Below are positions 1-5,100 of a stretch of DNA of 64,000 nt, piece after piece. The notes below the pieces were generated by a model. It was not told where the DNA came from, ran no database searches, and saw only the letters and a list, made by a program, of their open reading frames with translations. Every line of letters begins with the position of its first letter. The first letter of the stretch is position 1. The position numbers and the translations under genes were made by a program. The stretch comes from Roseburia sp. 831b (GTDB lineage Bacteria > Bacillota > Clostridia > Lachnospirales > Lachnospiraceae): NCBI RefSeq assembly GCF_001940165.2, contig NZ_CP135163.1, forward strand, positions 178,775 to 242,774, written 5' to 3'.

Positions 1-171
1 ATGTAGGGTGTCTGCAATATCCGCTCTCGCTTTTTCTACCTTTTTTCGTTCTTCTTTTGCCCACTGATATCCAGCAGACGGATTTGCATATCTATGCCTA
101 AGACCTTCTTGCATGATTTCATATACTTTATCAGATATTCTGGTTGTCGCTGCATTATCAAAATAAATCAT
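1..171 (-). CDS. Cysteine desulfurase, NifS/IscS-like (5' part only)
   Basis: Only the first 57 codons are inside the window; the gene runs off the left edge. The translation begins MIYFDNAATTRIS, the N-terminal signature of class-V aminotransferase fold cysteine desulfurases, PLP enzymes that take sulfur from cysteine. The ATG at 171 overlaps the TGA of the 108-aa gene upstream (ATGA), so the two are probably translationally coupled. As the last visible member of the leftward peptide-type operon, it could supply sulfur for a modification or detoxify cysteine persulfide. That role is inference. The PLP lysine and catalytic cysteine lie outside the window. Confidence 0.85.
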   Translation of the reverse strand, partial: MIYFDNAATTRISDKVYEIMQEGLRHRYANPSAGYQWAKEERKKVEKARADIADTLH

Positions 172-494
172 CTTTTTCCCTCTGCATCATTACCAAACTT
201 GATATAGGTCATTTCTGGCATCCATGCAATACTTTCTTGAAATAGTACTGGCAGATTCGATATTTTTTGGCTATATGTTCCTTTCTTGACACAGTCATTT
301 AGATACTCCAGCAAGCTGCAATAAACCTGATTCGCTATTTTTCCTTTTATAATAATGCATGGCTCATTATTGTTATATTTTTCCTTGCTAATGCGCATGA
401 TATAGGAATTCTTTAACGGCAATTCCGAAATTTTACACTCCCTTCGTTTTTCCTGTTCCATGGAATATAATTGAATTTTTGCTTTTCCTTTCAT
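168..494 (-). CDS. Hypothetical 108-aa protein in the peptide-type operon
   Basis: A 108-residue soluble protein with no signal peptide or membrane segment and no family I recognise. It has three cysteines (RRECK, NEPCI, VYCSL) spread along the chain, not in CxxC form. The start at 494 follows the stop of the thioredoxin/CcdA gene by 11 nt, and its stop overlaps the start of the cysteine desulfurase. It is therefore a tightly coupled operon member. Its size and position between a redox protein and a desulfurase would fit an accessory or substrate-binding partner, but nothing in the sequence shows this. Confidence 0.6.
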   Translation of the reverse strand: MKGKAKIQLYSMEQEKRRECKISELPLKNSYIMRISKEKYNNNEPCIIIKGKIANQVYCSLLEYLNDCVKKGTYSQKISNLPVLFQESIAWMPEMTYIKFGNDAEGKR

Positions 495-505
495 ATTTTG
501 TCTCC

Positions 506-2014
506 TTACCCTGCAAATTGTTGTAGCAGCATCATAATTCCAGTCACCAAAAATAAAACAGCGTATGTAAGCTTTACCCAGTGTGTTTTTTCACTGACAA
601 AAAGTGCCAGTACCGAAGTCTTTTTCCCAAAGGAAACCAGAAACACGAAAAATAGCAACGGAAGCATACAAATAAAACTATATAAGGAAAGGTACCAGAA
701 TGCTTGTAAGAAATAGGCTGCATCCACATGAATAATTGTAACAATGGAAAGCAGATAGATTTGCCCCGCGCATAAAAATTCTGTAAATCCAATAGCTGCA
801 CCTAAAATCAAACCTGATAATACAAAATAGTTGCTATTTAAAAACCGCTTCACATTCTCTTTTATAAGCCTATGATTTATCCCTCTTACTTTTTCTGGCA
901 GCTGTGCTTTTATGCCGCCTAAGTCATCTTTTTTGATTGCAGCATAATCATTCAAATTCAATACACCTAGCAAAAGTAAAAGCAAACTAAGAACGATATG
1001 AATTACCTTCACTAAGATGGAAGAGTGAATCTGACTCATCACCTGATACAAAACAGTTCCAAGCAAAAGCATTGATATGAATTTTCCAATGCAAAAGGCA
1101 ATTCCAACTGGAAGAACCTTTTTGGAGTCTGCTTCAAGTAACATTAAGAGGAAGAAGAACATGGAAAGCGAGCAGGGATTTAAACCATTCAAAAAAGCAG
1201 CACCCACAAGTTTTAACACATCCATATCCCGCACTACTTTTTGGTCCTGGTTTAAGTGAGAGACCTGCTCTCCCAATTGCTTTGTCTCCCCTAGGCTTTC
1301 ATCTTCTATTACATCCTCCAGATTCTTTTTTATGGATGCTTCCTCATAAAAATACGAATTTCTGACAAAAATAATAGGCACTGTCCCAACGAACTCTGGT
1401 TCAACACCATATTCCTCACAATACCCATTTAATAGACTTTTGTTTTCCACGGAAACAATATTGTATTTCAAAATCTTAAGATTTTTTTGTGTCTTTGAAT
1501 ACGCCAGAAGATAATCCGATATTTTTTTACAACTGGAACAGGTTGGGGAATAGAAATACACCAGTTCAAGTTTCCGTTTGCTATCCTTCTCTTGAAAAAA
1601 ATGATAAATATCATCTTTCGTGATATCCTCATAGAGTATCTCTTTGGGGTGACCGTCGATATAATGTACAATAAATGGGACTCCTTCTTTTCCATATTTT
1701 GAAAGCAGCGCGTCAGAACCTTCCTGCATAGAATCAAGGTCAATTCCATAGATTACTTTTTTATCCAAAAGGGAACTTTCTTTTTTTACCTCTGACATAT
1801 CATTTTTCAGTTTTTTACAAGATGCACAGGTCTCACTTGTCACCCAGATATAACAATCTGATTCCGTCTTTGTAATTTTTTCTATATCTTCACTCTGAAT
1901 CTTCACATATAAGGAATCTTCCTGCTTTCTTTTTTCATTTACCAAGGTAATCATTCCTATGACAAAACAGGCAAATAAGAGGATTCCTAACATTTTTTTC
2001 CATTTATTTTTCAT
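506..2014 (-). CDS. Double thioredoxin-fold / CcdA-DsbD-like membrane protein
   Basis: About 502 residues from the ATG at 2014; an upstream in-frame ATG at 2038 is possible and neither has a strong RBS. An N-terminal signal-anchor is followed by two thioredoxin-like modules, with CASC near residue 63 and CSSC near residue 159. Then comes a multi-TM part with NPCS near residue 280 and a second membrane cysteine in EFLCAGQ, as in CcdA/DsbD electron transporters. The likely role is moving reducing equivalents across the membrane to keep an exported or membrane substrate reduced, or to isomerise its disulfides. The neighbouring 79-aa peptide carries three cysteines and is the obvious candidate substrate (inference). 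Confidence 0.8.
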   Translation of the reverse strand: MKNKWKKMLGILLFACFVIGMITLVNEKRKQEDSLYVKIQSEDIEKITKTESDCYIWVTSETCASCKKLKNDMSEVKKESSLLDKKVIYGIDLDSMQEGSDALLSKYGKEGVPFIVHYIDGHPKEILYEDITKDDIYHFFQEKDSKRKLELVYFYSPTCSSCKKISDYLLAYSKTQKNLKILKYNIVSVENKSLLNGYCEEYGVEPEFVGTVPIIFVRNSYFYEEASIKKNLEDVIEDESLGETKQLGEQVSHLNQDQKVVRDMDVLKLVGAAFLNGLNPCSLSMFFFLLMLLEADSKKVLPVGIAFCIGKFISMLLLGTVLYQVMSQIHSSILVKVIHIVLSLLLLLLGVLNLNDYAAIKKDDLGGIKAQLPEKVRGINHRLIKENVKRFLNSNYFVLSGLILGAAIGFTEFLCAGQIYLLSIVTIIHVDAAYFLQAFWYLSLYSFICMLPLLFFVFLVSFGKKTSVLALFVSEKTHWVKLTYAVLFLVTGIMMLLQQFAG

Positions 2015-2525
2015 ATCGTTTCTTTGAACCCTTTCCATTTTTTACAGTAAGAATTCCCTTTAAAATCATTTTTCCGTCTCCTAGTGGTGGTATGACATTT
2101 ACAATGTGGAGCATATAGATGCCGGAAATAACTTCTATGATACCGCTGTCACATTGACGGCTGAAAAACATTCCGCAAAGACCTATTAAAAATGTCACAG
2201 CCGGTCCTAGCACCGCTGTCTGTATTAAATTCGCTCCTGTCAAATTTTCTTCTGTAGTAATGGAGGCTTTCCAGATTCCGTAGCTGATTTTTACAGTCTT
2301 TACTCCAAAACGCCGCATAAACACAATGTGTAAATACTCGTGTATGCTAACGGACCCAAGAAAGCCAACCAGATACACAAGTAAACAGCTCATTCCAATT
2401 TCCAATGTCTGTGTAAAAAAAAGAAGCAGCGTTGTTAAGAGCAACATGATGATTGCAAAAAACAGATTATTTCTGAAACACCAGGCATATATGGTATGAA
2501 ATGATAACTCCGCTGTATTTTTCAC
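2004..2525 (-). CDS. M50-type (site-2-protease-like) membrane metalloprotease, GTG start
   Basis: I place the start at a GTG at 2525 because it overlaps the TGA of the preceding gene (GTGA). The frame upstream of it reads like the shadow of that gene. This gives 173 residues with about four hydrophobic segments. HEYLH at residues 62-66 is the HExxH zinc motif, and NVIPPLGDG at 143-151 matches the second N-x-x-P-x-x-D-G type motif of M50 intramembrane proteases. It is short for the family, with no PDZ domain, like the M50 proteins found in peptide-maturation loci. A single-TM peptide encoded in the same operon is the natural substrate candidate (inference). Confidence 0.75.
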   Translation of the reverse strand: MKNTAELSFHTIYAWCFRNNLFFAIIMLLLTTLLLFFTQTLEIGMSCLLVYLVGFLGSVSIHEYLHIVFMRRFGVKTVKISYGIWKASITTEENLTGANLIQTAVLGPAVTFLIGLCGMFFSRQCDSGIIEVISGIYMLHIVNVIPPLGDGKMILKGILTVKNGKGSKKRYEK

Positions 2526-2884
2526 AGTGATTTTTGATTTTCTACCAGGTAATGTCTGTATTGCAATAATTTTTTTGCAAAATAATAGGTTCCAAACAGC
2601 ATTGCGAAACAGATTCCTACAAAAAATACAATTGGGAACCATTCACCTGTAAGTCCAAATGACATGCTTGTTACACCGGCAGAGTCTGTTGCAGATTTAA
2701 AAAAAATTGTTTGAAAGAAACAATATCTCATTCCATCTTCCCCTGATGAAAATAACATCACCAAAAAACTAATCGTCATACCTACCAGCGTTGTAACCAT
2801 TGACAAAAGTATGGAAACCGCTAACATAACGCCGGTTGAAGAATTTCTCCACTTCATCAAAAAAACACTTTCTTTTTCTTCCAT
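2522..2884 (-). CDS. Small multi-TM membrane protein of unknown function
   Basis: The ATG at 2884 is preferred over 2890 because AAAGG lies 8 nt upstream of it. The product is 120 residues with two or three hydrophobic helices: one near residues 15-40, a weaker one near 50-60, and one near 80-100. The C-terminus is basic. I recognise no family. It sits directly after the small peptide gene and its stem-loop, and is translationally coupled to the M50 protease. In bacteriocin-type loci this position is often an immunity or export component; that is a guess from context only. Confidence 0.55.
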   Translation of the reverse strand: MEEKESVFLMKWRNSSTGVMLAVSILLSMVTTLVGMTISFLVMLFSSGEDGMRYCFFQTIFFKSATDSAGVTSMSFGLTGEWFPIVFFVGICFAMLFGTYYFAKKLLQYRHYLVENQKSL

Positions 2885-2900
2885 ATCCATTTCCTTTCAA

Positions 2901-2927
2901 CCTGTGGGAGAAAAATTCTCCCACAGG
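2901..2927 (-). terminator. Strong stem-loop after the 79-aa peptide gene
   Basis: A perfect 12-bp stem (CCTGTGGGAGAA / TTCTCCCACAGG) with a 3-nt loop lies between the stop of the 79-aa gene and the start of the next gene. No U-run follows on the transcribed strand. It is therefore more likely a partial terminator or mRNA-stabilising 3' hairpin that raises peptide mRNA above that of the downstream genes, as is common after precursor-peptide genes. Confidence 0.7.
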
Positions 2928-2937
2928 AATTTTAGAA

Positions 2938-3177
2938 TTATTTACACTCGGCTCTTACTTCTATACCATTTTTAGACCAATTCCATTTTCCGGTAAAAGT
3001 CTTTCCCTTATAAACCACACACCAGATCTGTAAGCCTGCATAAACGGTAAATGCAATTGACAATAATACCGCCAATAAAATCAAAAACCATGCATTGCAC
3101 TCCACAATGGCATTACGAATCCCCTCTTTTACGGCCATCAAATATGTACCAACTTTTGCTGAAACTGCATACTGCAT
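2938..3177 (-). CDS. 79-aa single-TM peptide; candidate precursor of a processed peptide
   Basis: The ATG at 3177 has a good RBS (AAAGGAG about 7 nt upstream). The chain has a polar amphipathic N-terminus (1-28), one hydrophobic segment (about 29-55), and a cationic aromatic C-terminus with GKWNW. Cysteines are at 27, 53 and 78. It has its own promoter and is followed by a strong stem-loop, then an M50 protease, a thioredoxin/CcdA protein and a desulfurase gene. No family is recognised. The simplest reading is a substrate that is cut in or near its TM segment to release a roughly 25-residue basic peptide (bacteriocin or signal). It might instead be a small subunit of a membrane complex. Confidence 0.65.
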   Translation of the reverse strand: MQYAVSAKVGTYLMAVKEGIRNAIVECNAWFLILLAVLLSIAFTVYAGLQIWCVVYKGKTFTGKWNWSKNGIEVRAECK

Positions 3178-3244
3178 ATTCCACTTCTCCTTTCTTCTAT
3201 ACCCTTTTTATATCCATTTCTTCTCGTCGACGTTTCGAAATGTG

Positions 3245-3292
3245 TTGTCCTTGGACAATGAAAAGTATAGCTTTTTGGACAAGCATGCACAA
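3245..3292 (-). promoter_or_regulatory. Promoter of the peptide operon with overlapping operator repeats
   Basis: On the minus strand, TTGTGC (3292-3287) and TATACT (3269-3264) are separated by exactly 17 nt. The octamer TTGTCCAA occurs twice, 24 bp apart: once in the spacer and once over the expected start site. There it forms the palindrome TTGTCC-TT-GGACAA (3245-3258, plus strand). Sites inside the spacer and at +1 suggest repression by a DNA-binding protein, possibly one of the XRE regulators encoded just upstream (inference). Confidence 0.6.
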
Positions 3293-3329
3293 TAAAGTAT
3301 TGGTATATTCTGATTACCTATAATTCCTG

Positions 3330-3633
3330 TTATTCAATAGAAATGGTATAAAGATAGTTCAATATCTCGGATACCTTCTCCTTTTTCTCATTTGGAAATT
3401 GATTTAAATCATAATTTACCTTTCCAGACAAAATAAAATCTCTAACTCGAATAAAGTTCTCTTGCGAGCAAATATAAAATTTTGGCTGAAAATCCTCTTC
3501 CCTTCACTTCAATCTCATATAAATGTTTGGTCGAAATCTCTATTTTTTCTGCTAATTGTTCTCTTGTGAAGCCTTCTCTTTCCCGTATATCCCGAATTCT
3601 TTTTCCTGCGTATTCATAAATCTGTTCTGTCAT
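3330..3633 (-). pseudogene. Frameshifted XRE-family regulator
   Basis: The open frame from the ATG at 3633 gives 63 residues with an XRE helix-turn-helix (TREQLAEKIEISTKHLYEIE) and stops right after LYLLAREL. In the next frame the sequence continues as DFILSGKVNYDL and ends EILNYLYTISIE at a TAA (3332-3330). Together they make a typical ~100-residue XRE protein of the 'LARxLxVSxDFILxG' type, so one base has been gained or lost near 3440. The gene lies immediately upstream of the peptide-operon promoter and may have been its regulator. A sequencing error is possible. Confidence 0.65.
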
Positions 3634-4815: not shown

Positions 4816-5100
4816 CTGCGGTGCCTTTCCTCTATAACTCGGTATTAGGCATGTGCATTTTCACCACTTTTTTTCCTGCTCTGCGGTGCCTTTCCTCGAT
4901 AACTTGGCATTAGGCATGTGCATTTTCACCACTTTTTTCCTGCCCTGCGGTGCTTTTCCTCGATAACTTGGCGTTAGGCATGTAATTTTGTACATGAAAA
5001 AACATGCCTATAACCAAAATACAGCTATTAGGCATGCCTTTTATCTCTTTTTAAGCGAGAGATGTACGTGCCTGAAATCAATATTTTAATAATAGGCATG
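4816..5100. repeat. 64-65 bp tandem repeats plus GGCATG inverted repeats
   Basis: Three copies of a unit starting CTGCGGTGCCTTTCCTC begin at 4816, 4881 and 4945 (periods 65 and 64). Each includes a TTAGGCATGT core. Past the third copy the core continues as an inverted motif (ACATGCCTAT near 5008) and as direct motifs near 5030 and 5094. No ORF or spacer-like structure is associated. The rest of the intergenic stretch 4446-5134 holds only AT-rich sequence and the remnant at 4634-4799. Confidence 0.75.

Follow-up and report, generated by a model that had tools for sequence, protein, structure and literature searches.

A probable TMcin biosynthetic cluster with adjoining thiol-redox genes in Roseburia sp. 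831b

A 64,000-nt stretch of the Roseburia sp. 831b genome (GCF_001940165.2, NZ_CP135163.1:178,775-242,774, forward strand; G000:C2:178775-242774 in our numbering, and "the window" below) begins with a minus-strand operon that is very probably (about 0.85) a TMcin biosynthetic cluster: a 79-amino-acid (aa) peptide would be the bacteriocin precursor TmcA, a 122-aa protein the escort TmcE, and a protein with an HExxH motif the leader protease TmcP. The basis is gene content, homology, conserved motifs, the predicted fold of the peptide, and the recurrence of thioredoxin genes. Read in this way, the system is of a known kind, described in 2025; the novel part is its accessory thiol-redox module.

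TMcins are transmembrane-helix, pore-forming bacteriocins published in 2025-26 (PMC12328743, PMC13252029); what is said of them here follows the main text of these two papers. They are described as having a transmembrane (TM) helix flanked by two Trp residues, a two-stranded beta-sheet, and one disulfide; TmcP (HExxH, DUF3267) takes off the leader, TmcE escorts, and TmcBC exports. The membrane helix is retained in the characterised products, from which TmcP removes the leader only, and secretion and killing have been measured for the characterised TMcin. In staphylococci the DsbA-type protein TmcD makes the disulfide, i.e. it oxidises (PMC12328743, PMC13252029); according to the 2026 paper, this oxidoreductase is absent outside staphylococci (PMC13252029). 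Literature searches on TMcin by name returned nothing relevant beyond these papers, and those on the gene combination as first listed, and on CcdA plus cysteine desulfurase in Lachnospiraceae, nothing relevant.

The first-pass annotation of the window had placed a peptide-maturation operon of uncharacterised kind at 1-3292. All the genes it named are there, on the minus strand (Table 1): a small TM peptide with three cysteines (Cys27, Cys53, Cys78), a small membrane protein, an HExxH protein (HEYLH), a fusion of two thioredoxin domains with a CcdA-type domain (Trx-Trx-CcdA), a 108-aa protein (u108), and a cysteine desulfurase. It had also proposed extending the contig to the left; the extension (L003, C2:166000-184800) yielded the complete desulfurase open reading frame (ORF) and, farther on, two ABC transporter genes at L003:7684-9817 that the original limits had missed. 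The maturation reading stands in so far as a membrane peptide, an HExxH protease, and thiol-redox genes adjoin. The operon is not of an uncharacterised kind, however: taken together, its peptide, its protease, its escort, and its two ABC proteins are the TMcin core set; sulfur modification beyond a disulfide, also suggested, found no support.

The TMcin core set

The genes are transcribed in the order tmcA, tmcE, HEYLH protease, Trx-Trx-CcdA, u108, NifS-type desulfurase, transposase (which, by its sequence, we take to be of IS110 type), ABC ATPase, ABC permease. The exporter genes tmcB and tmcC thus lie outside the window, to its left, and are split from the other tmc genes by IS110. The ORF layout fits the translational coupling proposed at first: tmcE overlaps tmcP, tmcP overlaps the Trx gene, a gap of 11 nt separates the latter from u108, and u108 and NifS overlap by 4 nt. 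The longest HExxH ORF is 212 aa, while its relatives span 161-206 aa (most of them 165-178), and their alignment with it begins near residue 40. Its start has probably been over-called, the real one likely being a GTG near 2525 that overlaps the tmcE stop.

The cluster used for comparison is that of Staphylococcus epidermidis plasmid pHOB2 (L046; order B-C-E-P-A), in which the tmcA position is held by a 297-bp gene, equal to the published size for S. aureus G1905. All five core proteins align with it: TmcA (38% identity, E 7e-18), TmcP (28%, E 3e-19), TmcE (33% over 76 residues to the protein at the escort position, E 3e-9), TmcC (27%, BLASTP E 5e-46), and TmcB (phmmer E 1e-45, among 21 proteins). 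The protease conserves both HExxH and a distal DG; the pHOB2 match identifies a two-TM escort, the number of helices being judged from sequence alone; and a TmcB plus TmcC exporter is present in L003. No Pfam or NCBIfam profile matched the peptide, permease, escort, or u108 above its cut-off. An HTH (helix-turn-helix) and small-protein pair stands beside tmcA in pHOB2 as well, but the regulators differ, none of the 13 pHOB2 features is named as redox, and six thioredoxin-fold queries find none there.

Compared through the S. epidermidis cluster, the published TMcin-G1905 cluster (S. aureus pCT545; tmcA-E, P) has a homologous core set: a protease with HExxH and distal Asp, a small escort, an ABC ATPase and permease, and a precursor with one Trp-flanked TM helix, a Cys pair 25 apart, and a C-terminal beta-hairpin. 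The window differs in gene order (A-E-P-redox-B-C vs. B-C-E-P-A), in its probable leader length (28 vs. a published 45), in having Trx-Trx-CcdA, u108, and NifS in place of the DsbA-type tmcD, and in carrying IS110 inside the cluster and a Cys at the second-last leader residue. The CPHC motif of the staphylococcal sub-type was not found; the motifs in the fusion are CASC and CSSC.

The epeXEPAB operon of Bacillus subtilis likewise combines a peptide, a site-2 type protease, and an ABC pair, but epipeptide (YydF/EpeX) operons need a radical S-adenosylmethionine (radical-SAM) enzyme, which is absent in the window, and the peptides are unrelated. Membership in this group was rejected, no radical-SAM match being shown for the eight operon proteins scanned against Pfam.

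Table 1. Features of the operon and its surroundings (window positions, or positions in the leftward extension L003).
Feature	Position	Strand	Remarks
tmcA-like precursor, 79 aa	2938..3177	-	38% identity over 74 residues to S. epidermidis pHOB2 homologue
12-bp hairpin directly 3' of tmcA, without T-run	2901..2927	-	-23.2 kcal/mol, z -4.6
tmcE-like escort, 122 aa, membrane protein	2522..2890	-	alignment and pHOB2 escort-position match
tmcP-like leader protease, HEYLH and distal DG, DUF3267/site-2 clan	2004..2642	-	PF11667 below cut-off; pHOB2 match
Trx-Trx-CcdA fusion, 510 aa	506..2038	-	CASC and CSSC; CcdA-type Cys in NPC and EFLC
u108, 108 aa, unnamed family	168..494	-	invariant PC cysteine (EPC here)
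NifS-type cysteine desulfurase, start	1..171	-	379 aa complete, L003:11807-12946
IS110-type transposase (presumed)	L003:10357-11688		between desulfurase and tmcB
TmcB-like ABC ATPase, 241 aa	L003:9092-9817		phmmer match to pHOB2
TmcC-like ABC permease, 472 aa	L003:7684-9102		BLASTP match to pHOB2
Perfect palindrome TTGTCCTTGGACAA	3245..3258	strandless	upstream of tmcA; candidate operator
Second small HTH protein, 63 aa	3442..3633	-	HTH_3 E 6.5e-8; just upstream of tmcA control region
Cro/CI-type HTH regulator, 71 aa	3720..3935	-	HTH_26 E 6e-24
DUF2975 membrane protein, 164 aa	3951..4445	-	PF11188 E 3.5e-6; upstream of 71-aa HTH gene

The TmcA precursor

Roughly the first 26 residues of TmcA are variable and the remainder strongly conserved, with W30, W52, C53, and C78 invariant in 11 aligned sequences, three of them plasmid-borne, that of pHOB2 included (the alignments exclude P0012, an ORF fused to a transposase, and alignment A2 excludes P0001). 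One TM helix is predicted between the two conserved Trp, and C53 and C78 are 25 apart, like the published C25 and C50. An AlphaFold2 model (24 sequences; mean predicted local distance difference test score, pLDDT, 74.6; predicted TM-score 0.47) has a helix at 3-26, a break at 27-28, a second helix at 29-56, and strands at 61-68 and 71-78, the last two forming a C-terminal beta-hairpin (61-78) as in TMcins. Confidence by block is 56-59 for leader and break and 81-89 for helix and hairpin (pLDDT means of 84-89 for residues 31-60 and ~81-82 for the strands).

If the published C25 and C50 are read as mature-peptide numbers, A29 would be the first residue of the mature peptide, which would thus begin where the helix is broken. 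We infer a variable leader of residues 1-28, a cleavage site at N28/A29, and a mature peptide of 51 residues (29-79), whose C-terminal hairpin a Cys53-Cys78 disulfide would close. The third cysteine lies outside this product and is not essential to the family, since residue 27 varies among homologues: the window, L018-L021, and P0002-P0011 carry Cys; P0001, L022-L033, and L050 carry Tyr; and L046, L044, and L045 carry Phe, Asp, and Glu, respectively. Mispairing of Cys27 was considered as a cause of the redox genes, an idea weakened by P0001, a cluster representative 99% identical to the window peptide that carries Tyr27, and by L020, which has Cys27 and no nearby thioredoxin relative.

An intramembrane cut freeing a fragment of about residues 50-79, redox- or sulfur-modified and serving as a signal or bacteriocin, had been proposed at first. 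A site-2 type protease does adjoin a single-TM peptide, and two cysteines do bracket the C-terminal 26 residues; but characterised TMcins keep the helix, TmcP taking the leader only, and conservation spans the whole of 29-79, helix included, all of which makes such a fragment very improbable and 29-79 the expected product.

Distribution and gene order of tmcA loci

A protein search with TmcA gave 12 matches, among them the cluster to which the window peptide itself belongs, and a scan of one genome per species found 16 tmcA loci. The hosts of these 16 are Lachnospiraceae, Kandleria, Rummeliibacillus, Haloplasmataceae, Caldalkalibacillus, Bifidobacterium, and the Arthrobacter group. Counts below refer to 21 loci: the window, L018-L033, L044, L045, L046, and L050. 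L035 (a repeat of L018) and L043 (E 5e-5, 34 residues) were left out, and two of five tmcA plasmid records, both Paraclostridium, are outside the counts.

The protease is present at 19 of the 21 loci (by phmmer, except for L027, recognised by its HExxH and GDG motifs, and L045, a PqqD-M50 fusion) and was not seen at L019 or L044. An ATPase adjoins tmcA at 19, the exceptions being L019 and the 4.1-kb contig L021; a permease akin to the window's occurs at 17, its ORF split in L022; and the escort occurs at 18, missing at L023 (which has a 106-aa ORF there), L044, and L045. The first-pass annotation had expected homologues of the peptide to be accompanied by both protease and redox genes: this largely holds for the protease, but a thioredoxin-fold gene of the kinds sought is found at only 4/21 loci. 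Gene order is B-C-E-P-A in L020, L022, and L046; A-B-C-E-P in L024-L033 and L050, with L023 similar; E-P-A-Trx in L018 and L021; and A-E-P-redox-B-C in the window.

Counting the Roseburia genome itself, tmcA occurs in 2/397 genomes of the family, 1/60 of the genus, and 2/391 of the class, one of the last a 34-residue match. This rare and patchy occurrence fits horizontal spread; tmcA copies are also found on plasmids and in IMG/VR. As to whether the 243-kb contig carrying the cluster might itself be a plasmid, RepA_N matches are confined to the other contig.

TmcA might alternatively be a permanent small component of a membrane complex, either ABC or redox, and not be secreted at all. It is a strongly conserved single-TM protein with ABC genes adjoining at 19/21 loci; however, its homology and predicted fold match a bacteriocin with measured secretion and killing, near-identical tandem copies exist in L022, and a gene in one of 60 genus genomes is patchily spread for such a part. 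We find this hardly credible, and the least probable of the readings considered.

Some loci are of interest in themselves. The tandem copies of tmcA in Caldalkalibacillus (L022:9576-10213) are each followed by a strong hairpin, and the permease ORF there is split. In Kandleria vitulina (L019:9974-10578), an orphan tmcA and tmcE have neither protease nor matching ABC genes within ~10 kb; this is possibly a remnant, or an immunity/escort pair. An IMG/VR contig filed as viral (L050:2802-6095) holds a complete A-B-C-E-P cluster, followed by ORFs that, judged from sequence, resemble transposase pieces. On Paraclostridium bifermentans plasmid CP124688.1 (L045:11511-12404), a TMcin-type cluster has as its protease-like gene the fusion of PqqD with an M50-like domain; an adjoining Thioredoxin_4 gene, apparently split, is a further non-staphylococcal redox variant.

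The thiol-redox module

DsbD/CcdA relays combine two membrane-embedded cysteines in the CcdA domain with an outside Trx CxxC. The 510-aa fusion has both elements, and its second CxxC and both CcdA cysteines (NPC, EF(L/F)C) are kept in 8/8 aligned proteins; PF13386 is above cut-off in the genome search but falls slightly short in the protein scan (21.9 vs. 24.9 bits). The desulfurase has the Cys in GSVC and the Lys in GHK, presumably its functional residues. A profile of u108 matched 659 proteins at E <= 1e-3, the few named ones from Lachnospiraceae or kin; Pfam assigns no domain to any of the 120 relatives listed, and all 51 aligned sequences keep the PC cysteine.

Thioredoxin-fold relatives were sought at all tmcA loci with six phmmer queries (E 0.01, all ORFs >= 40 aa), a check that could miss divergent DsbA-type genes. 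Four loci have one: those in the window, L018, and L021 are of the window's kind, and that in L045 is of Thioredoxin_4 type. A Trx or Trx-CcdA gene directly follows tmcP in the window and tmcA in L018 and L021. A protein search with Trx-CcdA, in which 8000 candidates were scored, yielded 26 at E <= 1e-30, the best, 97% identical, named from a Roseburia sp. metagenome-assembled genome. Two of them, P0135 and P0139, each derive from one contig, of 9638 and 12892 bases respectively; since the peptides P0006 and P0009 also come from single contigs of these sizes and from the same source, the pairing very likely recurs in these two metagenome contigs. For the other nine peptides (P0002-P0012 minus P0006 and P0009) no paired Trx-CcdA was found at E <= 1e-30, some contigs being too short to tell; nor did the plasmid collection hold a Trx-CcdA relative at E 1e-4.

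Within the family, a search with the fusion matched 12/299 genomes, the window's included, six others having strong matches (genomes with weak ones, E 4e-5 or worse, were left out). The stretches from these six carry Trx-CcdA in 6/6, a u108 relative in 5/6, and the desulfurase in 1/6 (one stretch is just 5.4 kb). At four stand-alone loci (among L036-L041), the u108 relative is convergent with the Trx-CcdA gene.

In a non-staphylococcal TMcin cluster, the Trx-Trx-CcdA/u108/NifS module is new: thioredoxin, CcdA, and desulfurase go unmentioned in the main text of PMC12328743 and PMC13252029, figures and supplements lying outside that scope. Pediocin-type clusters with the accessory thioredoxin PedC are similar, as bacteriocin operons with their own thiol-disulfide helper. 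The helper here has two Trx domains fused to a CcdA-type membrane domain, where PedC is one soluble domain.

Several observations weigh against the TMcin reading, or against the place given in it to the redox genes. For the protease, PF11667 scores under its curated cut-off (E 1.2e-4, 22.9 vs. 27.1 bits), the pHOB2 protease itself having no Pfam match at 0.01. The core is not uniform, because the proteins at the permease place in L044 (486 aa) and L045 (329 aa) have no phmmer match to the window or pHOB2 permease. The cleavage site depends on published Cys numbering, and the agreeing helix break lies in a weak block of the model (pLDDT 56). Seventeen of the 21 tmcA loci have no thioredoxin-fold relative by the six queries, so that the family does not require the module. 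CcdA/DsbD relays usually reduce, whereas the characterised TmcD oxidises. None of the six genomes with strong Trx-CcdA matches has tmcA. Finally, IS110 between desulfurase and tmcB may have cut the operon.

Trx-CcdA, u108, and NifS might instead be passengers, a Lachnospiraceae sulfur and redox unit that happens to sit between tmcP and tmcB and serves the whole cell. In favour of this are the six Trx-CcdA genomes without tmcA, the overlap of NifS with Trx-CcdA in one of them (L041), the presence of NifS beside a redox gene in a TMcin cluster in the window alone (L021 ends just after u108), and the five other desulfurase matches in the genome. Against it, tmcA again has a Trx or Trx-CcdA neighbour in L018, in L021, and probably in the two metagenome contigs; the window and L021 proteins score 351 bits to each other and at most 146 to stand-alone ones; and the ORFs overlap or nearly touch. 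Passenger status seems a possible but doubtful account, and action of the module on the TmcA peptide the somewhat favoured one. We suggest only tentatively that NifS and u108 act as sulfur donor or relay for the redox module.

The transposase raises the different question of decay: IS110 might have severed tmcBC, leaving a strain that makes no active peptide. Its insertion is probably recent, because it shares 100% identity over 1316 bases with two further genome copies. Every core ORF is open, however, and transposons can supply a promoter, so we regard decay as unlikely. The other copies (G000:C1:264423-265865 and 2212410-2213852) match the window-side copy up to base 1316; in both, the final 24 bases of the IS110 ORF are found ~100 bases further on, as if there were a short insert near the transposase end.

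Hairpin and upstream region

The strong stem-loop noted at first directly after the peptide gene holds up, none of 200 shuffles being as stable. Stable folds (z <= -2.5) follow tmcA homologues at 16/21 sites, with unrelated sequences (100 shuffles per site; L022 counted twice, L050 outside the count); those at L018 (z -1.9), L019, L023, L033, and L045 fell short. The independent telling cases number fewer than 16: nine come from the Arthrobacter group, whose members are related, and L020, L022, and L046 have tmcA as their last gene, so that an ordinary terminator may explain the hairpin there. In the window it would act as an attenuator or 3'-end stabiliser.

The peptide gene had also been credited with its own regulated promoter. 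The part of this that stands is an exact palindrome upstream of tmcA, the sole exact copy in the window and a candidate operator; matches with up to two mismatches are at chance level (3 found vs. 2.57 expected). Scanning for sigma-70 promoters gave none for tmcA on the minus strand at 3178-3340, and sigma-70 sites were not in excess over shuffles (16 vs. a mean of 18.8). The 71-aa HTH protein is a possible regulatory part, as is the DUF2975 protein: an HTH similar to the former is encoded on a Paraclostridium TMcin plasmid (E 9e-22, 1e-19), on which DUF2975 genes are found too. In the window, a tandem repeat (4816-4983) of 2.6 copies of a 65-base unit separates the DUF2975 gene from the one that follows.

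Possible mechanism and significance

Each processing step, and killing, is projected here from the published staphylococcal work. TmcA would insert into the producer's membrane, where TmcE and TmcP would cut off its leader, probably at N28/A29, and the Cys53-Cys78 disulfide would shut the C-terminal beta-hairpin. The linked Trx-Trx-CcdA protein may control the thiol chemistry of TmcA as an oxidase, isomerase, or reductase. TmcBC would then lift the 51-residue product from the membrane and secrete it, and the secreted TMcin would kill Gram-positive competitors via pores.

A more speculative version, which we think quite unlikely, is a sulfur relay of anaerobic Lachnospiraceae and Haloplasmataceae-like bacteria, in which NifS forms a persulfide, u108 (EPC) acts as its carrier, and Trx-Trx-CcdA hands sulfur or electrons through the membrane to TmcA, the Cys53-Cys78 link being formed or kept as a special state (e.g. 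persulfide, trisulfide, or a bond reduced until release). If true, it would be a route to a disulfide-type bond in a ribosomally synthesized and post-translationally modified peptide without oxygen or DsbA.

With thioredoxin-type genes beside tmcA in the window, L018, L021, L045, and probably two metagenome contigs, the redox question becomes directly testable, above all in anaerobes. The recurring hairpin after tmcA may determine how much peptide is made relative to the maturation proteins. More generally, the cluster would locate an antimicrobial with a new mechanism in a gut-type bacterium, where the redox genes may let an anaerobe handle the single sulfur bridge of a TMcin.

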